Below are positions 6,666-63,302 of a stretch of DNA of 64,000 nt, piece after piece. The notes beneath the pieces were generated by a model. It worked only from the letters and a program-made list of their open reading frames with translations. It was not told the DNA's origin and searched no databases. Both the position numbers and the translations under genes were made by a program. The stretch spans positions 1 to 64,000 of the forward strand of contig WFMF01000456.1 of NCBI GenBank assembly GCA_011033025.1, written 5' to 3'. Numbering within the stretch: the stretch's first letter is position 1; each line of letters opens with the position of its first letter. The stretch is from Beroe forskalii. Its lineage: Eukaryota > Ctenophora > Nuda > Beroida > Beroidae.

Positions 6666-7690
6666 TTAATTGCACATTAACAAATGTTTTTATGAGTGAA
6701 ATGGTCAAATTATTTGCAGCACTGATTCAACAGATTCTCATTCATCAACAGATTCAACGGACGTTGCCCCGTTTATTTCTTCTGACTGGATGGCGAGGTT
6801 GCAAAGTGACGTCCAGATGTGGAACGTTGCGTCGCGCGCGAGGGTAGGGTAACATCCTACGACAGATTCTCATTCTCTGTGCACAGTCATTTGTCGTTTC
6901 ACTACCGCGTATGGCCCAACATAAAGCACATAAACTTAATTTGGTGAGATGGATTAATTTTTCCTAAAAATAAGAATAATAACTTTTTACTCCATGTTAC
7001 GGAGCGTAAATGGATTTTACCCATCTTTAGGTATCTCTCCCATGTAAACGGGGCTGAGTGACGTCACAGATCTAAAGGTCAATTTTTCTGTATCCTAAAC
7101 CTAACCGTGACCCTAACCAAAACCCTAACCTTAATCCTTATCCTAAACCTAACAAATCCTGACCCTAACCAAAACCCTAACCCTTTCCTTTAAAGCGCTA
7201 GATGCGCTTAATTATATTTTTCTGAGTGACGTCATTGTCATAGATAATGAAGGCTCCCGTTTACATCATGGGAGACGTACCCATCTTTAGCGCGCAATTT
7301 GGAGGGCCGGGTCGTTTTGACCGTGTTGCAGTTGCGCGAAAAAGGCGCGTGGCGGAGGGTAGGGTAAAATCCTGTCAGCGCTACGCGCGCCTCTTCAGCA
7401 TTCAGAGACTTTTCCTGCTCGAAAAGCGCCGCGTGCGCGAACAAACAGGGACACGCACGCGCAACATGTCGTTATTCTTTGTCAGGCGTTGCCTGATGAC
7501 GTTGCCTGGCCCCTCGCGCGCGCGCCCCGACTCGCAAAAAAATATGGGGCAGACAACGTGAACGTCTGGCAAAGTAGATTTGGGAAATGATAATTCAAAA
7601 CGTTAAGCTAAATTGTAATAAATTAAATTTCTATAATAACATGAAAAAGTGTTGGAAGTTGAAATTTAACTTTTAAATTTATGTAAAGTG
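6666..7690. repeat. Tandem segmental duplication, unit 1 (filled by a small element)
   Basis: First of two tandem units beginning TTAATTGCACATTAACAAAT. It is about 765 bases of shared sequence plus an inserted element and its extra target copy (see 7031-7277). It contains CpG-rich stretches of alternating GCGC and the word ACAACGTGAACGTCTGGC, which recur near 36-37 kb. No convincing gene; the open frames here are GC-rich artefacts. Confidence 0.85.
7031..7277. mobile_element. 247-bp inverted-repeat element with 13-bp flanking duplication
   Basis: Ends are inverted repeats, TCTCCCATGTAAACGG on the left and CCGTTTACATCATGGGAGA on the right. It is flanked by TACCCATCTTTAG at 7018-7030 and 7278-7290. 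The neighbouring tandem unit has a single copy of this 13-mer and no element. The interior contains degenerate CCCTAA/CCTAAC repeats. No coding potential. Confidence 0.82.
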
Positions 7691-12000: not shown

Positions 12001-15000
12001 TGTATTCCATCACTGTCCCTTTACTCTTTACCAACTTCCAAAGGTCTGGGTTGAAGTTACCAATAGTCGTTTCTTGGGTTACCTGAATAATGAGAGTTTC
12101 TAGTGATAGTTATTGTGCTGTGATTAAACGCAATTTAGATACGAAAGACGATTTTCCATTAAAAATAAGAATGATGATATTTTGAACATGATGACAGTCC
12201 GTAATGAACATTGCTACAGAATAGCGAACATACAGTAATTGAATTAAAATGAATCTTGCTTTCCATTAAGGAGTCAAATGTAAGTGTAATTGTAACGCGT
12301 TACATGTGATTGTTTGCTCATAACTCAATAGCAACAGTACAAACCTCAAAAGACAATTCAAATAAAGTAAACTAAAATACAAACAATCAAACTATTCAAA
12401 GGAATGATCCTTCCCTCACCAATCCCGTAGACACCAGCGTGAAGTCATCGCCACTAAACACAAACCCTGGATAGCTCGTGAACACCTGATAAATTACAAT
12501 GAAGTAAAATAAAACATTTCAGATAATCTCTGACATTAGATTTAACGAGTAGTTTGTTTTTGCTACAAAGTCTTTGAGGGGCCTCTGCCCCTTTCCTCCG
12601 CTGGGGCTGCGCCCCAGACCCCTGACGCCACCAGCCTGAAGGCCGGTTTGGCTCAGTGAGAGGCTTAAAAAGAGACAATAACCTGTCTTTTTCCCGGGAT
12701 AACCCCTTCCCCGGAGCCAGGCAAAGTCCTGTAGTTGAGAGTGTAGTGTTTGATGACACGGAGCATGGCTTGGTAAGAGTTCCAGGTAACGTGGGATACC
12801 AGGAGGTCGGCAGAGGTTAGCTTTACCAGGGCAGAACAGTGTCCTGAATGGTATTGGGTTCAAGGGCCTTGTCAGAGGTTAGCTTTACCAGGGCAGAACA
12901 GTGTCCTGAATGGAGGGATGTTGGGTTCAAGGGCCATGTCAATGAAATCAACAGTCAAATCAAAATCACCATGAATTGCTTGAAAAACGATCAATCACAT
13001 CGAGATCGGATAGGTAGTACAGTCAAGAGGTAACAGTAATCAAATGCAATCACGGTATTCTAAATCTGAATGCTAAATAGCTCAGGGCGCATAATAAAAA
13101 GAATGACCTGATCCCAGCAACTTTTGCAGCATTTGCTCCTCGATTCTCGTCAACTTCCCTCTGATATCTCTGTCATTTTCATGATCCGTGCCCAGATCGG
13201 ACAGGTTTTCTCTGTCCATCCCTCCATCACTCTCCTGAAAGAAATACCCGTTCTTTGCATGATGACACGTGCAATTTTGCAAAGATTGCCACTTTGCGAC
13301 ACAATTTACCCGCCGCGCGCGCCTAATGAAAACAGTGCGCGCGACATGCTTGCGCGGATTGCCCATATTTAAATCGTTCGGTTGCCGCGCCGGGCGAAAA
13401 CAGTATCCGATTTGTGTGAAATAGTGACAAAATGATTTGCCACTCCGAGATGCCATGAAAAATTCCTCATTGTAAAATTCCTCATTGTAAAATGTCATGA
13501 ATCTTAACTTTTAGGTGTCTGCATAGACTTAGGTTGATCGATCAAATTCATAAACCGAAAACATGCAAAAGTGATCATACAGGCTCTGTTTCGTTCGATG
13601 AACCTAAGTCTATGCAGGCCCCTTACCTCTGACAAAGCCACCTCCAGATCTATCAGATCTCCCATCATGTTGATAAGATGGAATTGTCGCAGGTTTAAGG
13701 TGTTCGGATACCTCATACTGAAGCCAGTGTGGAGACCTAGGGTTATTTCAAGGTTTATTTTAAGGGTTATTTCTAGGTTTATATAAAGCACTATATTTCG
13801 GATTTCCTTGGATTGTTTTCTATCTTAAATGAGATTTTGATAGGGTCCATGCAGCATTTCAATGGCAAGTTTTTGATTATCATGAGATATCATTTAATAA
13901 ATCCAGGCATTATAATAAAGTTGTTACCTTCGATTTGAATCAGTATAAGGTGAATCTGATGCCAATACGCAGACTTTGCTCCGTATCTAGCAATCATTTG
14001 CTGCATCCACTGGTAGTTCGATGTCATGTAGGCGTATAACTTATCACAGTATTGCGACTGATTTGCACAGTAGTTTCTCATAGTGTTACACCACTCTGAC
14101 ACCACTCTACCCTGACACCTCACACCACTCTTCCCTGACACCACTCTTCTCTGACATTACCCTTCTCTGACACCACTCTTCCCTGACACCACTCTTCCCT
14201 GACACCACTCTTCTCTGACACCACTCTTCTCTGACACCACTCTTCTCTGACACCACTCTTCTCTGACACCACTCTTCCCTGACACCACCCTTCTCTGACA
14301 CCACTCTTCTCTGACACCACTCTTCTCTGACACCACTCTTCTCTGACACCACTCTTCTCTGACACCACTCTTCTCTGACACCACTCTTCTCTGACACCAC
14401 TCTTCTCTGACACCACTCTTCTCTGACACCACTCTTCTCTGACACCACTCTTCTGACACCACTCTTCTCTGACACCACTCTTCTCTGACACCACTCTTCT
14501 CTGACACCACTCTTCTCTGACACCACTCTTCTCTGACACCACTCTTCTCTGACACCACTCTTCTCTGACACCACTCTTCCCTGACACCACTCTTCTCTGA
14601 CACCACTCTTCCCTGACACCACTTTTCCCTGACAACACTCTTCTCTGACACCACTCTTATCTGACACCACTCTCTGACACCACTCTTCTCTGACACCACT
14701 TCACTCTGACACCACTCTTCTCTGACACCACTCAGTCACCTGGTGGCAGTGACGTATCCCTCTCCAACCCCAGCAGCTCGAGCCTGTAACTCGTCAGGCT
14801 GAGTTCCGTTGGTGTGCACTGCCAACATCGACCAGCCTGTACTGAAACGAAAACTTTGAGGAAAATTATAAAATTTTATTACAGACAACGTGATTAATCA
14901 ATAAGGTAATTTAAGCATTGTGGTGTTTTTCAAAGCAATGGCCATGGAAAATGGACAAATTATTGAGTATGGAGACCGAATTCCGTAACATCATCTATCG

Positions 15001-16563: not shown

Positions 16564-19500
16564 ATGACGAGACTTTGTTTTTTAGTTGTCGCTGCTTTAT
16601 CGATAGTGGGCTGCAGTGGTCTTATTCGAGATGCTTATCTTAGAAAACTCAGGTAAGAATAATAAAGTAATAATCATATTGTGTAAAAAGGCTAACACAA
16701 GTAAATGTGCTCAGTGCTGTATTAAATATTTATTAAGTATTTATTGTTTACCTTCATCAACGCCTGCTGACATCTTGAGATTTCATTCACATCACCATTT
16801 CTTCATTTATCAAACACAGCTCTGATTCTCTGAACCTTGGAATTCGTACCTGAAAATAAGTTGAACTCGCGAAACGAAACCTAGATACCAACCTTGACTC
16901 TTATTTAAAATTAAATTTCCGTCTATTGACCTTTCAAAGCTTCAACTTCTTAACTTCTTAACAACCTACTCCCCCAGAACACCAGAAAACGAGCGGCAAA
17001 GTGAGAGTGACGCCTCAGTGACAGCAGATGACAGTGACCTTGTGACAGTGCACGTGGTGCCACATACCCACGATGATGTGGGGTGGTTGAAGACCATGGA
17101 TCAGTATTACTACGGGGCCAAGGGAGAGATCAGGAAGGATGGGGTAAGTGTTGATTTCACCGTTTTCTAAATAATAGTCAAATTTTGTGAGTTTTTAGAT
17201 TTAATTTCCACTAGTTATACGCACAAAATTCGGACTAATTGAACCTAACATGAAAAGGTATCATATCAATAACCAAAACGCTAAATTTCCATAGCATAAA
17301 ATACCACATCTATTGACCAAATTTCCATTCCTCTTCAGGTTCAGTACATTATCGACACAGTGATAGACGAGCTGTATAAAGACCCTGCTAAAACCTTTAT
17401 TTACGTGGAAATAGCTTTCTTCAAAATGTGGTGGGAGGAACAAGGTAAAGGAACTTTTATTCTTTTTTTTAATCTAATACTCTCCTATTAAAATTTAATT
17501 CACGGTGTCAGTCACGATTGTTCACAATCCTGGCAGAAAACCGTTAATAAAAGTGACCACTGCTATGATATGAACGTGTCCTCTGCAACCCCATTTCCAG
17601 ACAAAGCGACGCACACCAAAGTACGTGAACTGATACAAAGGAAACAGCTGGAGTTTATAAACGGGGGCTTCGTGATGAACGATGAGGCGGGGGTCCACTA
17701 CTCCGCAACCATTGACCAGGTGACGTCATTATCATAGCGCAATGTGGTGAGTTGATGACGCAACCATTGACCAGGTAATAGCATTCGGAGGCAGATCGAC
17801 CCTTTCGGACACTTACTTTACATTGACACCACTTTCTTTGACACCAATCTCCTTGAGCCTTGACACCACTTTCCTTGACACCACTTCACTCTGACACCAC
17901 TTCACTCTGACACCACTTCACGCTGACACCACTTCACATTGAAACCACTTTCCTTGACACCATTTCACTCTGACACCCCTTTCTTTGACACCAATTCACT
18001 CTGACACCCCTTTCTTTGACACCACTTCACTCTGACACCACTCTTCTGCAGTTCAGTGCCGGGCTGGTCTGGCTCACTGAAACCTTCGGAGGTGAGGCGG
18101 AGCCGAGGGTAGCCTGGCAGATCGACCCTTTCGGACACAGTAGGGCGCAAGCAGCACTCAGTTATCAGAGTGGACTGAAGGGGGTGTTCTTTGCAAGGAT
18201 TCACTATCAAGGTAACATGACCCTCCAACCGTGAGAGGGTGCTACGGATGATCTCTATGACAGAATTATAACAGTTATCAATATTGATATTTTCAGAGAT
18301 GTCTTGACAGTAGTTAGTGTTAAAATTCTACTTCTACTTCTATCTTCCATGAACTAAAACATTTCAACTTTTTGTAATTAATGAAGTTTTTGGAATTTAG
18401 GAAAGTTTAAATTCATTTGAAAGATCGAACCCCATTGTTACGTGTCTGATAATTAGAAATACCTTCCAAGACTACGAGCGAAGGAAGAAAGAAAAAGACT
18501 TGGAGTTCATGTGGGAAGCTGAGGGGGATTCCGTGTTTACTGGAGTGCTGTACAGGGCCAACTACATGGAACCAACAGGTTCGTAGCTGAGGATAAGGTT
18601 CAAGAATTTGATGGAATTTTAGTGTTGAGGTCCAGCCCTGCTGACGACGATAATCACATGATTTTCGAAAGCTTCTGATATTTTAGTATTTTGAACTTTC
18701 CGTATCATTTAAACGTGTTTTAAAACTTTTCAACTATGTACCGACTTATGTAACTTTTTATAAACTTTCCTTCCAGGTTTCTGTTTCGACACCCGCTGCA
18801 CGGACACCCCCATGATAACCAACCCTAACTCTCCTGAGTATAACCTGCCGCAGAGAGTAGCGGACTTTGTGGAGTACCTCAAGGTTACAAAACTTTAGTA
18901 TTCTTTTACTTTAGTAGACTCAAATAAGTGAAATCATGATCCTTAACAGCTAAACCTATTAACTTATCAACTTTTCGGAATACTTAAATATACTCCAGTA
19001 GCTGAGGGCAAGGTCGTGTACCCATCATTGTCGAGAAGGTTTCTCGACGGTTTTCGGCACGTTAGACCATGCTGAAGAAAACGTACTTGCTGCCGTTCGA
19101 TGAATCGACGTCCAGAGGGGTGATATGGCCACGCCCATTTTTGCCCTCAGGCGGTATTATGAGACATGATTATTTCGACTTCTGATGGTCATAGAGACTT
19201 CAGAATTAAACTAGAGTGTCTATCTTATCGAGGGGAACAACTTTTTCTCTGACAACTTTTTTGTCAGATAATTAGTTAATTGACCAATTAGCTAATTGGG
19301 CAATTTTTAAAAATCCTAAAAAACTTTTTATGGCTAAAAATGATCATAATAACCTGAAACGTGGAAAAAAGTGGTTTTTAAGAATATTTTAAAAAAATTT
19401 CACTTAGAAAATTTTTTGACTTAGAAAAATTTTGAGCAAAAAAACGAAATTTTCATTTTTTGCATCCTTAATTAACTTGGCCCAATAATTTTTGACTTCT

Positions 19501-22500: not shown

Positions 22501-25500
22501 CCTTCTCGACAATGATGGGTACACGACCTTGCCCTCAGCTACTGGAGTAATAACATATCGGATTTGAAATTTGAAGAAGTAGTATGTAGTAACGAGTTAA
22601 TAAATTTACTAAGCGTATTTTTCTTTATATAATATCACATATTTTGGTATCACATATTTTGGTTTTTCAAACACAAAGAAATACTTTTCTCCAGGACCAA
22701 GCCGCCCACTACCGAAGTGGACACATCATGATCACCATGGGACGGGACTTTGCCTACCAAAACGCTCACAAGTACTTAAAAACCTCGCCATTCTTATCTC
22801 TGAAAATTAGCAACACCAAATTAAGCACTATTCATGGTCCTTCTGCTTTTCTAAATTTTCTAAATTTTCTTAATTAATTTACTTGATTTCCCCACTGAGG
22901 TATTTCAAGAACCTGGATATTCTGATGGGGGCAGTGAACGGGAATGCTTCCTCTCACGGGTTTAGGATGGTCTACTCCACTCCGTCAAGGTATGGTAGAC
23001 GGATAAGGAATTTGGCAATTTAAAGAAACTTCGGCAGACTGGAGGTTCGACGACTTCTCCCAGACTGCCAAAACTTCACATTCTTTCAGTACGGTACATT
23101 ATAAGATAATATTGTAATTAGGATTTTGAGAACATGAGATATAAAGATCAACTTGGCCGGGGAATTTGACTGAATGCCAATTTGATGAGCCGTTTTCAGC
23201 CCATTAGTACCCAACATAGCCTAAAAGCAACAGTTGAATAATTGAAACCGAAATTTCAACCAACTTCATCTTAACAAGGTACATGGATGCAGTCCTGGAA
23301 GCTACCAATGGAACCCTATCCACTAAGCAAGATGACCACTTCCCTTACGCGGACTTCCCCCACGCTTACTGGACAGGATATACTGGTATTTGCCAAACGT
23401 TTTGTCAATACAATGATGGAACATAGCTGTATTATAATCTTCCTGTAAAAGTTTACAAAGTAAGAAAATCTCAAGTTTACAAAAAATCTGAAGTTATCGT
23501 TAGATTTTGAAATTCAACCTCCTCTAAAGTTTTAAAAGAGAGCACATCCCACAATATTAAAACTGAAATCTCTCTCAGTAATCCCTCTGAACTTTGAACT
23601 AGGCTCAATAAACCCAGGATACTTCACCTCCCGCCCCGCTCTGAAAGGCTACATCAGAGACAGCAACAACATGCTGCAAACCTGCAGACAGCTTGAGGTG
23701 CTGGTCGGTAGCAAGCGGTAAGTTAGGAGATAAACGGCCGTAAACGGACCTTTCGACACACCTTTATAAAATACATAGACACGGTGCGCGAAGGGATCTA
23801 TTTCAGATAGAACCCGCGTAGCGGGTTCTATCTGATAGAATGATACGAGTGCGCGCAGCGCACGAGTTTTCATTCTTTGTGTAATCCCGAGACGAAGTCG
23901 AGGGATTACACTTAAATAGACTCTGAGAGCACCGTGTCTATGTATTATAGATGAGTCCGGGTTATTGCATGAGAGTCTAAAAACACAACTTATGGAAGTA
24001 ACTGGTAACACAATTGGCAGAACAAGCATTTCAGCTTTTCAAGAGATTCAGTGCTTTGATTGGTTGATTTGAAACTTGCAGAATTGAATTGAGGATGACA
24101 GGAGAAGGATGGTTCATGAACAGAAATAATTGATAATTGTATGAGTTAAACAGGAGTATGTTTCAAAGAATACTATTGTACGATTACAAATGCAACAACA
24201 AAAACAATATCAATCAAAGAATCGATACAACAACAACAATGTCAACGAATAGGGTCACTATTATAATCTGCAGGAGCATGCAAAAGGCCAAAAGAGGTAA
24301 AAGGACTTTTTCGTGTAAACAAGTAAAGCAGAGCCAGAACGGCGAAACGAAACAGTGCAGAAACTGTGAATGAGAGAATGAGAAACCGTTTGATAAATGA
24401 TATTGCTCCGAAACCAGTGGCACGTGCGCGCGCGCGACACGTGACCTTGATTTGGTACAGTAACAGTGGCACGTGTGCGAGTCACGTGGAACGGTAATTA
24501 CATGTTTAGAGAGATTCTCGCGGGAACGAAACATTTGGTATACATGTTGCTAGTAAAAGTGCGTGTTGTTTGAGAGGAGTACAATACACTGAAACTATGT
24601 GATAGAGACAGTGAATGTATTTGATAGAGGGATTCTGCCAGCGTGTCTATCGCTCTATTTTTTATCCCCTCCCGCTGGCTAAATCCTCCCGCAATAACCC
24701 GGACGAATTTATAATAAGGACCAGTTACCGACTGGTAAATTAGTAAATTCATTCCTTTTTTACTAAGCTTCTCATAACATAATTTCGCTTAATTCTTTCC
24801 CATTCCCATCTTCTTCCTGAGATAGTCAGATCTTTTTCCCCCTTCCAATCCTCCCAAACACCCCACAGATGTGACGCTGACTCGTTGTGGCTAGCCCTGA
24901 GCGTAGCCCAACATCACGACGCTATAACCGGTACTAGCAAGCAGCACGTAGCAGATGACTACGCTAGACAGTTGGCAGTGGGCCAGGAGTTTTGTGAAGG
25001 AGTTATCAACAGGGGCTTGGAGGAACTCTCAGGGATGGATAGTGGAGGTAGGGTTAAATATCAAAAGATCGTAAATTATTTCCTAGGTAAGTGTGTGATG
25101 TAGGATTGAAAAGTTGCCACTTCTCTTCTTCTCAGTATCACTGTGAAACGTCATCAATTCTTCATTCTAAAGCCTGATAATGACGTCACTCCTCCCCAGG
25201 TTTGCAGTCGTGCAGGCTGCTGAATGAGAGTGTGTGCAGTGTGACAGCACAGAGTGGTTATAAGCCCGTTACTGTGGTGGTGTATAACGCGAGACCTGTT
25301 CAGAGGAACGAATACGTCAGGGTAAGTACGGGATAACAGGCTATACGTCATCATTATTAACACTAGGAGATATCGTGATTAGGAACTCTCAACTTTAAAC
25401 CGTCTATTAACCGTCTATTTCTTTTTTGAAGTTAATCTCAAAATGAGGATCAAGTCAATATTTCATGTAATTATTCTCCACTTTTTAACCTACCATCCCA

Positions 25501-28500
25501 GATACCACTGCTACACCCGCATTACAGAGTAATAGACCTGTCCACCATGGAACCCATCACAGCCTCCTTTGTAGCTACCAGTCCTAATACCAAACGAGTA
25601 AACCCACAAGCCATGCCAATCGGTGAGAAGAGGAGGATGTGAGAATTTGAATACCTTATTACAGGAAATATCGCCTTCAGAAAAATGAGCCTACATGTCA
25701 TTAAGCTACATGAAATTAAGCCCTTTTTGAGGCCCTTGGGCTTAATTACATGTAAGCCTAATTTGATGCATTCTTAAATACATGCAGCCAAATTATCATT
25801 GTGGAAATAGAAATTTCATGAGATTGAAATTTCAGCCTTGTATTCAAATAATTAAAACTTTATTATATGTTACGAATTAGGAATTTTGGCTTTATTCCTC
25901 ATTTGACACTTTGATAGTTTGAATTACTATCCAATTACCACTGAACACAATTAATTTCAATTAGGGAATTTTCAGAGACGATAATTACTATGACAAAATA
26001 ACCTATAGAATAAGTCATCACAGCATCATGAGAATCTTATCACTTTATCAGGTGCATCAAATTGATGATAGAATGTATTTCCACAAAACACCACATAATA
26101 GTTGATAATCATAACGGCCTTGGAAACATTACATGCTATGTAAATTCAGCTAGATGAAGATTTGAAGGTATAATGGAGGGTCAAGGAGTGAGATCCAGGA
26201 TGTGTTTCTTGGCAACACCAGTGGCTTTCCATCCGGCATCAATTCAAAGCTTATTAATCATGCAATACTGTATCAATACTGATTGAAAAAAATCGATGTT
26301 TTCGAACTTATTAAGTTCAAATTTGCTTGAAAAAATAGTCCTCATGAAATTAAGAATACATGTCATTAAGGTGCATGAAATTAAGCCCTTTTTGAGACCT
26401 TAGGGCTTAATTATATGTAAACTTAATTTCCTGTAATAAGGTAGTTCAACTCATTTGAAAGCTTCGGAATCTAACACCTACTCGCCATTTCTAATTGTAG
26501 AAATGGCCTCAGATATGGCCCAACCCGCCAAAGCTCAACTTATAACAGAACTCTGTAATCACTCCATTTAATATGTCAATTCTCTCAGAGGTGGTATTCG
26601 AAGCCTTCCTCCCAGCGATGGGGTTCTCCTCATACCAACTAGCCCCCTCCTTCTTCTCCTTCCACTCTCACCGCCTGGTGTCTCAACCAGTGGAGGAGGA
26701 TATCAAGATAGAATCCAAGGTAATACCATAGAATCCAAGGTAATACCATCTCTATAAAAATAAGTTTCAATTGAGTGAAAGTCTCGAAAATCTGCCCTTG
26801 AACGATTGAAAATTGAAAAGGCAGACTTAGAAACCTTTCATGTCAAGTTATTAATTAGTTCAAAAGACGGCAGAAATCCTTGCAAATTTAAAACTAAAAG
26901 TTATCCTTCGATTCCCAGACGCTGGTGGTAGAGTTCGACAGTAAGACAGGATCCCTGAAGAGCATCACAAACAAAGCATTTGATATGATCCATGACATGT
27001 TGGGGTGCAGAGTCATGGAGTATCAGAGCAGTACGGGGGATGAGAAGGATAAACAGGCATCAGGTATTATAGGAAAACAGAAGTTTGTTTGGAAACCCAC
27101 GGCTGACGACAACTAGCACATGCTATTCGAAAGCTACTGTTCTCAAATTTTCTCGTATCAAAATTGAACGTGTCCAATATAATATGTTCAACTTGCTCCC
27201 TTAGAGCCTTAGCCACGATGGTACTTCCGTCGTATTAAAGTGCCATTTTAAATTTCTACTAAAACACTGAAATTGCCACAACACGAATAACCACAACGAG
27301 CTGACTTTTTAATGCAAAGTACTTTCAAATCATCATCAGTGAAAAAGTCATTGAGTTACCTCAAATTTGATTGTAATTTTAAATTTCCTCATTTTCCACC
27401 CATCCCTTGCAGGAGCGTACATATTCCGGCCAGCAGAGAGCGCCCCCACTGAGGTAGGATCCCCAGTCCTCACTAACTACCTGGTGGGAAAGGAGTTCTC
27501 TGAGGTGTGGCAGGACTTCGGGGAATGGTGAGATTTGAAAATTAAACAGGTTTCCCTGAGACACATTTCCGGGACCCCTAAAAGCAGTTTGATTTTGTCA
27601 CAAAAGTTTAAAAGTGCAACGCAGAATTTAAAAAAAAACAGTTTTAAAATTACATTTTCGGAACAGGTTTTTGTCTTTGATATCATCAATTCCCCATACT
27701 AACCCCTGATAATGACGTCACTAACTCCCCATTCTAACCCCTGACAATGACGTCACCAATTCCCCATTCTAAGCCCTGATAATGACGTCACTAATTCCCC
27801 ATTCTAACCCCTGATAATGACGTCACTAATTCCCCACTCTAACCCCTGATAATACTGAAGTCACTAATTCCCCATTCCAACCCCTGATAATGACGTCACT
27901 AATTCCCCATTCTAACCCCTGATAATGACGTCACTAATTCCCCATTCTAACCCCTGATAATGACGTCACTAATTCACCACTCTAACCCCTGATAATGACG
28001 TCACTAATTCCCCATTCTAACCCCTGATAATGACGTCACTAATTCCCCATTCTAACCCCTGATAATGACGTCACTAATTCCCCACTCTAACCTCTGATAA
28101 TGACGTCACTAATTCCCCATTCTAACCCCTGATAATGACGTCACTAATTCACCATTCTAACCCCTGATAATGACGTCACTAATTCCCAATTCTAACCCCC
28201 TGATAATGGCGTCATTAATTCCCCATTCTAACCCCTGATAATGACATCAATAATTCCCCATGCTAACCCCTGATAATGACGTCACTAACTCACCACTCTA
28301 ACCCCTGATAATGACGTCACTAACTCACCATTCTAACCCCTGATAATGACGTCACCAATTCCCCATTCTGACCCCTGATAACGACGTCACTAACTCCCCA
28401 CTCTAAGCCCTGATAATGACGTCACCAACTCACCATTCTAAGCCCTGACAATGACGTCACCAGGGCGAGTCTGGTTACTCGGCTGTACTATAACAAGGAC

Positions 28501-58756: not shown

Positions 58757-61700
58757 CATGTATGGTGGCCGAGGTGGCTAATGGCATTTTTTAAGCAATT
58801 GTTATTGTAATCAAAGTAAAATCAACCTAAAATAAAAATAAAATAAAAATAAAACCAAAATGAAATGAAAATAGAATGAAAATGAAATAAAAATGAAATG
58901 AAAATTTTAAAAAATCAAAATGAAATTCAAAATGAAATACAATCAAAGTAAAACCAAAATTAAATCAAAATAAAATCAAAATAAAACCAAAGTAAAATAG
59001 AAATAAAACCATTTTAAAATGAAAATAAAATGAAAACGAAATGAAAACGAAATGAAAATGAAAGTAAAATAAAAGTAAAATCAAAATAAAACCAGAATAA
59101 AACCAGAGCAAAACCAAAGGAAAATAAAAACCATTTTAAAATGAAAATAAAATGAAAATAAAATGAAAACGAAATGAAAATGAAAGTAAAATCAAAATAA
59201 AAGAAAATAAAAGTAAAACCAAAATTAAATCAAAATAAAATCAAAATAAAACTAAAGTAAAATAAAAATAAAACCATTTAAAATTTTTAGAGTTTAAAAA
59301 AAAGAAAAGAAAAAAAAAAAAAAAAGTAAACTTAAGAAAAAAAAAAAAAAATTAAAATTTCGAAAAATTTCGAAAAATTTTGAAAAAAAATCGCTCATGG
59401 CCGAGGTGGCTAATCTAGAATCTACAGCGCTGTATGAAAATTCGTGCGCAAATAAAGTTATGTTAAAGGAGTCTGCGCTCACTGACCCATATATCTCAAG
59501 ATCCACAAATAGTAGAGACATGATCGAGGTCATGTTTTGTTCATCTAAGACAGGAGTAGGTAATTGGCTATAAGAGAAGTTCTGATGACGTCATTATGAT
59601 GTCATTATGACGTCATCAACTTAGCGAAATTTTCTTGCTTGTTTAGCGAAAATAGGTCATCTTTGCGCATTTTTGACCAAGAAGGAATGGAGATAGCTCA
59701 GAAATGTTGAAAAATCGTTAGTTGGAAATTTAAAGAGCTTTCAGAAATTCATACGGATCATTGGGCTATCTCGATTTTTCATCGAGATATACGCGATTTT
59801 CTAAGGCACGGTGAAAAATCGATTTTGAAGTTTTAGAAGAAAACTGAAACGAGTGACATGTCCAAACTTACGACTTATCATGAGCTGAGACCGGCCAAAG
59901 TATGTTGGGCTAAGGCGAAATTATATAGTAGGCTATGTGGGAAATCGATTTGAGCCAATTTTGGTGCTGTGATGACGTCATCAAAATCGCGTAAAAACAC
60001 TAAAACAACGTATTTTGCGATAGATTGTTATTTTGCGCTACTTTGAACATCTCTTACTCAGAGAATTTTCATTGTATTATGTTTTACTTCAATACATTGC
60101 TTGTAGACCTCGAGATTTAGCTATAAAACGAGTTCCGTGGTGAACGGCCGAAAAATGTTACCATGGGAAGCCTCCAAAGATTGACCGCTAAATTATTGAG
60201 ATTACATCTATGATGAAAATTTGTACTGTAGCCAGCTATTCGTGATACGATGGTGAACTAATGTCTAATAATGGTTTTCATATTTCGCAGTAATTTGGGA
60301 GGGAAATAAGATGATGAAATTATGAAGGACGTGAATTCTCGTGGACATTTTGTAGAAATTACGGTATTTAAGGAAACTGGTATTTACACGTGAATTTCGA
60401 CTTGATTACATTGAAACAAGTTCAAATACGTTAAAGGTATGTGAAATTGAAGCCAGTTGTTGTTTTCAGCACGTGAGTTCACGTCAATGAGTTGTAGAAA
60501 TAAAGAATTATGTCAATTTTTATAATTTCAAGTAAGAATAACGTTGTTTCGGACTGCACGAGGCTTAGTAATGTTCGTCCGAACAGAAAAATCGATGTGA
60601 CAAAATGGACTGGCCACACCTAATTAAGCATTTAAGCAGGGGGCTACCACGAAAACCGTCCAAAATGTCGGTTATGGAGGTCCTATATACATATCCCCGG
60701 AACGAAACTTGAAAAAGAGATAGAAAACGATGAAAGGAGATGGGTTGAAATAAGCGAATTTACATTTGGTGAAACTCTGTTTGCACCATACCTTACGAGA
60801 CATATTTAAAAGGTACGAAATTTGGGGATTTTTCGAAAAAATCCCCATATTTTCGTTCCCCCAAAATTTAGATCCCCAAGATTATTTCCCCCAAATTAGT
60901 TAATTGCGGGTTTGTGATTTGAATTACAGTGCATAAAATATGGAATTCCCAGACAAATTTCAATAAGTATATCAGTGCAAAAGAGTTCAAAATATCTATA
61001 ATGCAGTTATTTCAAATAAAACCTTCTACACTCGACTCGATAAAAGGGATCTTGAACTGGAAATTCTACTACATCGATCACCTCAGTGATATTGGCCTTT
61101 CTGAAGTTCGGATTTATTCCCAAAAGTAACCTTATTTTTTCGAATTTGAAAAAAGGCGAAAATCCCCTAATTTAATTTGGGGAACGAAATTTGGGGATTT
61201 TTGAAAAAAATCCCCATATTTTCGAACCCCCAAAATTTCGATCCCCGGAATTATTGTCCCATGTTATTTTATCTTGTAAGGTAGTTATAATAGGCGGTTG
61301 AGAACGACGTTATTACTATGGTTGAATATGGTAAGTCAATGAAATAAGCGTCTAAATTTTCCCATGGGACCGTTTACAAAATTGACGTATTTTAATTTCT
61401 ACAACTCATTGACGTGAACTCACGTGCTGAAAAACAGCAACTGGCTTCAATTTCACATAAATTTATCGTATTTGAAGTTGTTTCAATGTAATCAAGTCGA
61501 AAATCACGTGTAAATACCAGTTTCTTTAAATCCCGTAATTTCTACAAAACGTCCACGAGACTTCACGTGCTTCAAATAACGATTTGACACTTTTTGACAG
61601 GATTAAACAGACCCATACTTCTCTCATGAGTCGGATACTTAATATATGACTAAGATTTATGTAGTGATGTACGGTATTGCATATGAATTGATTGTGTCGA

Positions 61701-63302
61701 GAAGAATAAAAATAAAATTTTAGTTTGATTCATAATTTCATCTTATATTTCCCTCCCAAATCACTGCGAGAAATATGAAAACCATTATTAGACATTAGTT
61801 CACCATCGTATCACAGAATAGCTGGCTACAGTGCAAATTTTCGTCATAGATGTAATCTCAATAATTTAGCGGTCAATCTTTGGAGGCTTCCCATGGCAAC
61901 ATTTTTCGACCGTTCACCACGAAACTCGTTTTATAGCTAAATCTCGAGGTCTACAAGCAATGTATTGAAGTAAAACATAATACAATGAAAACTCTCTGAG
62001 GAAGAGATGTTCAAAGTAGCGCAAAATAACAATCTATCGCAAAATACGTTGTTTTAGTGTTTTTACGCGATTTTGATGACGTCATCACAGCACCAAAATT
62101 GGCTCAAATCGATTTCCCACATAGCCTACTATACAATTTCGCCTTAGCCCAACATACTTTGGCCGGTCTCAGCTCATGATAAGTCGTAAGTTTTGACATG
62201 TCACTCGTTTAAGTTTTCTTCTAAAACTTCAAAATCGATTTTCACCGTGCCTTAGAAAATCGCGTATATCTCGATGAAAAATCGAGATAGCCCAATGATC
62301 CGTATGATTTTCTGAAAGCTCTTTAAATTTCCAACTAACGATTTTCAACATTTCTGAGCTATCTCCATTCCTTCTTGGTCAAAAATGCGCACAAAGATGA
62401 CCTATTTTCGCTAAACAAGCAAGAAAATTTCGCTAAGTTGATGACGTCATAATGACATCATAATGACGTCATCAGAACTTCTCTTATAGCCAATTACCTA
62501 CTCCTGTCTTAGATGAACAAAACATGACCTCGATCATGTCTCTAATATTTGTGGATCTTGAGATATGGGTCAGTGAGCGCAGACTCCTTTAACATAACTT
62601 TTGTTGCGCACGAATTTTCATACAGCGCGCACTGTAGATTCTAGATTAGCCACCTCGGCCATGAGCGATTTTTTTTCAAAATTTTTTCAAAATTTTTTTC
62701 ATTTTTTTTTTGTTTTTCTTAAATTTACTTTGTTTTTTGTTTTTTTTGTTTTTTTTAACTCCAAAATTTTTCAATGGTTTTATTTTTTATTTTACTTTAG
62801 TTTTATTTTGATTTTATTTTGATTTAATTTTGGTTTTACTTTTATTTTGTTTTATTTTGATTTTACTTTCATTTTCATTTCGTTTTCATTTTATTTTCAT
62901 TTTATTTTCATTTAAAAATGGTTTTATTTTACTTTGGTTTTACTTTAGTTTTATTCTGGTTTTATTTTGATTTTACTTTTATTTTGATTTTACTTTCATT
63001 TTCATTTCGTTTTCATTTCGTTTTCATTTTATTTTCATTTTAAAATGGTTTTATTTCTATCTTACTTTGGTTTTATTTTTGATTTTATTTTGATTTAATT
63101 TTTGGTTTTACTTTGATTGTATTTTATTTTGATTTTCATTTGATTTTTTAAATTTTCATTTCATTTTTATTTCATTTTCATTCTATTTTCATTTAATTTT
63201 GGTTTTATTTTTATTTTATTTTGATTTTAGGTTGATTTTACTTTGATTACAATAAAAATTGCTTAAAAAATGCCATTAGCCACCTCGGCCACCATAGCCA
63301 TG
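58757..63302. repeat. 4.5-kb imperfect palindrome with about 1.8-kb arms
   Basis: Left arm 58757 to about 60510 is the reverse complement, with many small differences, of about 61390-63302. The arms share GGTGGCCGAGGTGGCTAATG at the outer ends, an AAAATAAAATG-type simple region of about 550 bp (58810-59390; complement 62680-63250), GGCCGAGGTGGCTAATCTAG at the inner edge of that region, and a conserved stretch with paired TGACGTCAT motifs. The centre (about 60510-61390) is not inverted. Arm divergence argues against an assembly foldback artefact. Confidence 0.92.
60510..61390. other. Central spacer of the palindrome
   Basis: Contains two copies of AAATTTGGGGATTTTTCGAAA followed by AATCCCCATATTTTCG (about 60818 and 61187), each itself palindromic, and a 66-codon frame at 60929-61129 without family features. 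No transposase is seen. Confidence 0.65.

Follow-up and report, generated by a model that had tools for sequence, protein, structure and literature searches.

An exon-end duplication around a MITE core at a splice donor of an alpha-mannosidase gene in Beroe forskalii: a probable scar of DNA-break repair

Introduction

A lysosomal-type alpha-mannosidase gene of the ctenophore Beroe forskalii carries a short dispersed sequence exactly at the end of its exon 4. How did this sequence come to lie at a splice donor, and why does the gene tolerate it there? The locus was examined within a window of 64,000 nucleotides (contig WFMF01000456.1, positions 1 to 64,000 of the forward strand), and the assembly GCA_011033025.1 (216 Mb) was screened genome-wide. 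The joined first exons of the gene match the lysosomal alpha-mannosidase structure 1o7d (E 8.5e-80); its splice model was drawn by eye. The following features, all on the + strand, are discussed below:

17601..17719, +, mannosidase exon 4, ending in ..ATIDQ; open spliced translation aligned to lysosomal alpha-mannosidase
17704..17721, +, left 18-bp repeat copy CGCAACCATTGACCAGGT (exon end plus GT)
17720..17774, +, possible 55-nt nested mini-intron, GTGACG...GACCAG; its removal, presumed to be by the spliceosome, would restore CAG/GTAATA
17721..17760, +, MITE core of 40 bp (35-bp unit plus TGACG), arm-less; 414 copies within 3 mismatches
17735..17737, +, in-frame TAG, reached when the insert is retained
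17747..17752, +, consensus-like donor GTGAGT within the core; splicing from it would leave the TAG in the mRNA
17759..17776, +, right 18-bp repeat copy, carrying the surviving donor CAG/GTAATA
17784..17812, +, exon-5 fragments in intron 4, TTCGGAGG then GGCAGATCGACCCTTTCGGACAC, with a 2-bp overlap
17815..18042, +, 16/31-bp minisatellite, the bulk of intron 4
18052..18211, +, mannosidase exon 5, joined in frame to exon 4; source of the fragments copied into intron 4

Structure of the insertion and splicing of exon 4

The two copies of the 18-bp direct repeat are identical, lie at an offset of 55 and adjoin the 40-bp core without a gap on either side. The initial annotation had described a 16-bp direct repeat of the exon end; that a repeat flanks the element is correct, while its length is 18 bp. 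Exact 18-mer repeats within 200 nt are expected about 3e-9 times by a uniform-base estimate, which excludes a chance origin of the repeat. Bases are shared at the joints, namely T and CG between the core and the 18-bp repeat and GG at the exon-5 patch. The total insertion at the exon end amounts to 55 bp, and its DNA folding is unremarkable (z 0.48).

Splicing from CAG/GTGACG to 18052 keeps the mannosidase frame open in the spliced translation. Retention of the insert shifts the frame and brings a TAG into frame. The second donor reported earlier, GTAATA, does survive, within the right repeat copy; if it alone were used, the 55 nt would be retained and, as also predicted earlier, the reading frame would meet the TAG at 17735-17737, so that the protein would be truncated.

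Since the GT of the left donor falls within the 18-bp repeat and copies of the element elsewhere start with TGACG, mostly preceded by A, we assign the G of this donor to the host exon and regard the T as shared; only GACG, positions +3 to +6, would surely be the element's contribution. The element can thus hardly be said to supply its own splice donor, as had been proposed. Donors were scored with a small matrix of 18 donors (15 from the mannosidase and three from a fusogen gene described below), two of the fusogen donors beginning with GTAAT, which favours the old donor. Scores were 6.42 (left donor), 10.76 (right donor, the surviving one) and 5.78 (GTGAGT inside the core), compared with 4.84 to 11.31 for the 18 training donors. 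The left donor is therefore acceptable yet weaker than the old one.

The segment 17720-17774 starts with GT and finishes with AG, and two routes can lead to one mRNA: the left donor CAG/GTGACG may be spliced to the old acceptor in one step, or the 55-nt mini-intron may be removed first. The insertion is splice-neutral because the duplicated 18 bp contains AG/GT. We infer both the choice of donor and a nested removal of the 55 nt from the sequence. A dependence of the gene on the donor at the element, as initially proposed, is one of two readings, as prior removal of the mini-intron would yield an identical mRNA.

An introner would account for the GT..AG borders of the 55 nt and for a TTGAT about 19 nt before the AG, which we take to be a YTNAY-like motif. 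On this reading the element landed inside an undivided exon and turned into an intron, drawing its AG and GT from the target duplication. But the right repeat is not followed by exon: the frame resumes only at 18052, and the acceptor that it uses, at 18051, lies outside the element, 277 bp past the insertion. The element as a whole is therefore not an intron, and the insertion created none of its own. The family is, moreover, not enriched at donors among the matches listed (see below). We consider an introner origin very improbable, and the term introner-like, used initially, does not fit the locus.

The family of the 40-bp core

A genome-wide search with the 40-mer at 17721-17760, allowing 3 mismatches, gave 414 matches, of which 195 are forward and 219 reverse; the reversed-pattern control gave none. 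The 40-mer is thus a dispersed sequence, in agreement with the initial description of a short dispersed element at the end of exon 4; two other copies are identical to it (40/40). Most copies read lie in the middle of a short palindromic element (MITE) with arms of about CACGAGAAATAGGCGGGTAGGA (left) and TTGAACCGCCTATTTCTCGTGCGCGGCG (right); others belong to tandem arrays with a 35-bp period.

We read 74 distinct close copies, drawn from the best listed places among the 414 and hence not a random sample. One or both arms were present in 56 of them (both in 44, one in 12), 14 were tandem copies, whose arms were not assessed, and four were scored as having none, although three of these four keep degenerate arms as judged by eye. 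The exon-4 locus is the sole single copy without recognisable arms among the 60 single copies read: the core is not enclosed by inverted arms. The exon-4 insert is, for this reason, not a normal product of the family. The same arm counts argue against the idea that the core is itself a mobile unit whose insertion duplicated a long target, here the exon end. In favour of a complete MITE that inserted at exon 4 and later lost both arms by deletion, the other single close copies read have complete, partial or degenerate arms. Such a deletion, however, must have stopped precisely at the core on both sides and left the 18-bp repeats abutting it.

Flanking direct repeats were compared at 117 family loci (140 clusters, reduced to 120 by identical flanks). 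Fourteen rows scored at least 10, and after subtraction of three array self-matches (two L106 rows and one array of the window) 11 of the 117 loci remained, versus one of 467 permuted pairs. In most of these 11 loci an arm is shortened or missing by eye, the exceptions being L058 and L069; in L027 and L054 the repeat and the arm have few bases in common. Scores below 10 were obtained for 103 of the 117 loci, which speaks against both the mobile core and the complete MITE that lost its arms. In our interpretation, the flanking-repeat pattern of the family suggests break repair or template switching rather than the clean work of a transposase.

Among the best 100 of 583 matches within 1 mismatch, CAGG/TGACG accounted for five exact sites and was not enriched over the comparison words (seven AAGG, six GAGG, three CCGG and three CGGG). 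For CTGG/TGACG, eight of nine rows read represented one longer, unrelated repeat. A preference of the family for splice donors was rejected, since CAGG/TGACG did not exceed other words among the matches listed. The element end followed by CAGGT occurs at 32 sites including the exon-4 locus. A matching left copy was found at none of the 11 sites read among the 31 others, though only about five of the 11 carry core-like sequence and about six lack the core; the remaining 20 sites are array-type words. A further case, L077, was encountered separately and is described below with the fusogen gene.

Taken by itself, the mobile-core reading gains from the fragment ends, which match the core border, from the gapless abutment of the repeats and from the excess of repeat-flanked loci over permuted pairs. 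In view of the arm counts, the loci with low repeat scores and the CAGGT sites we nevertheless hold it to be unlikely. The decayed MITE is in our estimation quite unlikely.

Between 16.5 and 28.6 kb, the stretch covered by the gene model, all three core matches adjoin splice sites (17721, 25172-25199 and 27688). The reverse-oriented core fragment at 25172-25199 stops about 11 nt before a mannosidase acceptor (CTCCTCCCCAG/GTTTGC). At 27688-28460, a 22-copy array of a core-related 35-bp unit in opposite orientation ends at a mannosidase exon acceptor (GACGTCACCAG/GGCGAG); the consensus of its units includes CTAAC, presumably a branch-point-like motif.

Composition of intron 4 and its presence in paralogs

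Intron 4 (332 nt) holds, besides the exact 18-bp repeat, an exact 23-bp copy of 18116-18138 of exon 5. This copy lies at 17790-17812 and is preceded by another exon-5 piece, TTCGGAGG. Both pieces are exact and keep the order of their source, the 25 nt between them being absent. The longest repeats clearly surpass those in shuffled sequences (18 versus at most 11 and 23 versus at most 12; 100 shuffles each). A chance arrangement is hard to reconcile with exact copies of 18 and 23 bp, and an artefact of assembly, a concern in so far as one assembly only was available, would need a genome-wide repeat placed exactly at the exon end with the frame kept. We therefore regard chance or artefact as highly improbable.

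The minisatellite has a 16-bp unit; across the genome, 4,701 sites match a 27-base probe for it when up to 3 mismatches are allowed. A similar 16-bp array (ACACCACTCTTCTCTG) is located about 3 kb upstream, at 14099-14733 of the window. The window also contains a degenerate, telomere-like CCTAAC array at a contig-internal position (7094-7184), and mirror-image AT-rich arrays with ATGACGTCATT repeats at 58809-59616 and 62441-63248, which point to a large inverted-repeat element some 4.4 kb long.

Copy scores of intron 4 against its flanking exons were 23 and 16, while those of the other 15 introns against the same exons did not exceed 10.5 and 9. Strong copies of own flanking exons are thus confined to one of the 16 mannosidase introns. 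The idea that the mannosidase introns arose generally by tandem duplication was rejected, as only intron 4 of the 16 stood out. The impression by eye that intron 8 is a copy of exon 9 was rejected as well (score 7.5, within the null).

The closest paralog (C366; 73% identity over 83 residues) has no intron at the position of intron 4, nor has any of the four more distant mannosidase-like genes found, so that the intron is absent from five of five. These paralogs cannot separate gain from loss. By residue numbering, the intron position presumably corresponds to about c.513 of human MAN2B1. A human intron at this position looks unlikely, since the splice variants in the available part of a MAN2B1 variant table include c.437-1 and c.630+1 but none between them (PMC10725197).

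Two further observations concern exon structure. In intron 10 (23365-23630 of the window), the splice model reads TGYTGYF where the paralog has TGYF, indicating either a three-residue junction repeat or a different donor. Paralog L127 (G000:C366:174001-182000, reverse strand) has similar tandem copies of one exon at about 986-1093 and 1230-1337, possibly alternative exons.

Exon-end copies in a cell-fusion gene

A locus noticed through its core, and hence not an unbiased sample, provides a parallel. L096 (G000:C453:81700-85700, reverse strand) is a cell-fusion gene of the EFF-AFF type (PF14884, E 3.7e-27), in which copies of the upstream exon end occur in all three consecutive introns modelled by eye, the third being weak. 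The first intron has six exon-end copies with the donor, including the exon's own, at a spacing of about 35 bp. In the second (L077), two core units are flanked by copies of a 23-bp repeat that take in the donor and differ by 2 mismatches. The copies in the third are weaker and mostly without the donor; the best scores 14.5, compared with a shuffle maximum of 11.0. Across 93 non-overlapping family-locus sequences (254,438 bases, about 254 kb), local repeats ending in CAGGT were not in excess: 4 of 319, versus 4.3% of 420,921 windows, ranking 701st among 973 pentamers.

Origin of the insertion

The insertion is probably the product of a patchwork repair of a DNA break that captured a stray repeat unit and was tolerated by splicing. 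Two properties of the locus agree with this reading, namely an exact 18-bp repeat of the adjacent exon end flanking a filler, and a filler of traceable sources (the MITE core and the exon-5 fragments). The break would have occurred at or beside the exon-4/intron-4 junction, and the filler captured would be a stray unit of the 35-bp MITE-core/minisatellite family. The end of exon 4 would have been duplicated on both flanks, either by fill-in of a staggered break or by a template switch back upstream. The two exon-5 pieces in intron 4 would stem from this repair or from one next to it. The duplicated AG/GT would leave splicing correct, so that the scar was tolerated.

Several points weigh against break repair. 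The captured piece ends at the border of core and arm, which seems unexpected for random capture. With 18 bp, the repeat exceeds the exon-end repeats of Daphnia pulex, of which 33, measuring 4-12 bp, are given in the available part of the report on that species (PMC4202315). Furthermore, comparable exon copies are found in no other mannosidase intron.

We infer the repair mechanism and the recency of the insertion from this structure. The order and direction of events are accessible only in this indirect way, since the empty-site sequence has 0 matches in the assembly. The identities of 40/40, 18/18 and 23/23 suggest youth. Repeats alone, however, are no proof of it, because significant internal direct repeats were reported for 100 of 617 established Daphnia introns as well, compared with 55 of 90 neointrons (PMC4202315, in part). 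The locus had initially been taken for a splice site freshly captured from a tiny mobile element; the structure is real and non-random, and is better read as a repair scar.

A bolder proposal, which we consider doubtful, is that intron 4 as a whole was newly assembled. A break in a once-continuous exon would have been healed with copies of both exons, the MITE core and the minisatellite, and the nested 55-nt mini-intron would restore the donor; repeated exon-end duplication may then recurrently build or lengthen introns in this genome. If intron 4 is young, it would represent a readable intermediate of intron growth via break repair, with its fillers identified, and the exon-end duplications of the fusogen gene suggest that such a process would be countable genome-wide. 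The exon-4 locus itself is a base-resolution case of how an insertion exactly at a donor can be harmless, since the duplicated AG/GT makes the insert removable.

Comparison with known systems

The comparisons below refer to the available parts of the cited reports. The nearest precedent, by analogy of structure, appears to be the neointrons of Daphnia pulex. Like exon 4 and intron 4 studied here, they display direct repeats within the intron and of the adjoining exon end, as well as combined events at one site, and their repeats were attributed to staggered double-strand breaks (PMC4202315). The present case differs in the 18-bp length of its repeats, in a filler identifiable as a MITE core, and in that its youth is suggested by sequence identity and not by population data.

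Introners carry splice sites or co-opt them from TSDs, which in the described cut-and-paste families are 3-9 bp long (PNAS 2022, PMC9860276). The exon-4 insertion shares with them a small dispersed sequence and duplicated target flanks that hold splice-site letters. Introners, however, are introns similar to one another, whereas no new intron was formed here and the repeat has 18 bp (PMC9860276). In potato, intron gain through duplication involving AGGT segments was described (PMC4974935). There too, a duplicated AG/GT segment provides paired splice sites, but in Beroe the copies enclose a foreign core, and the intron and its acceptor pre-existed on our reading.

Nested introns at donors are known from fungi as stwintrons (PMC8469720, PMC12403724). 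A nested intron at the outer donor corresponds to the possible two-step route at exon 4. In contrast to exon 4, the stwintrons described in the available parts of these reports split the donor between nucleotides 1 and 2, have no TSD and are supported by RNA (PMC12403724, PMC8469720). Finally, the family of the core resembles Tetris, a foldback element of Drosophila virilis (PMC4079207), in that both are inverted-repeat elements whose internal tandem units also form satellite-like arrays. The Tetris units, however, are about 220 bp long and lie inside the TIRs, whereas the 35-bp unit of the Beroe family is the centre between the arms (PMC4079207).
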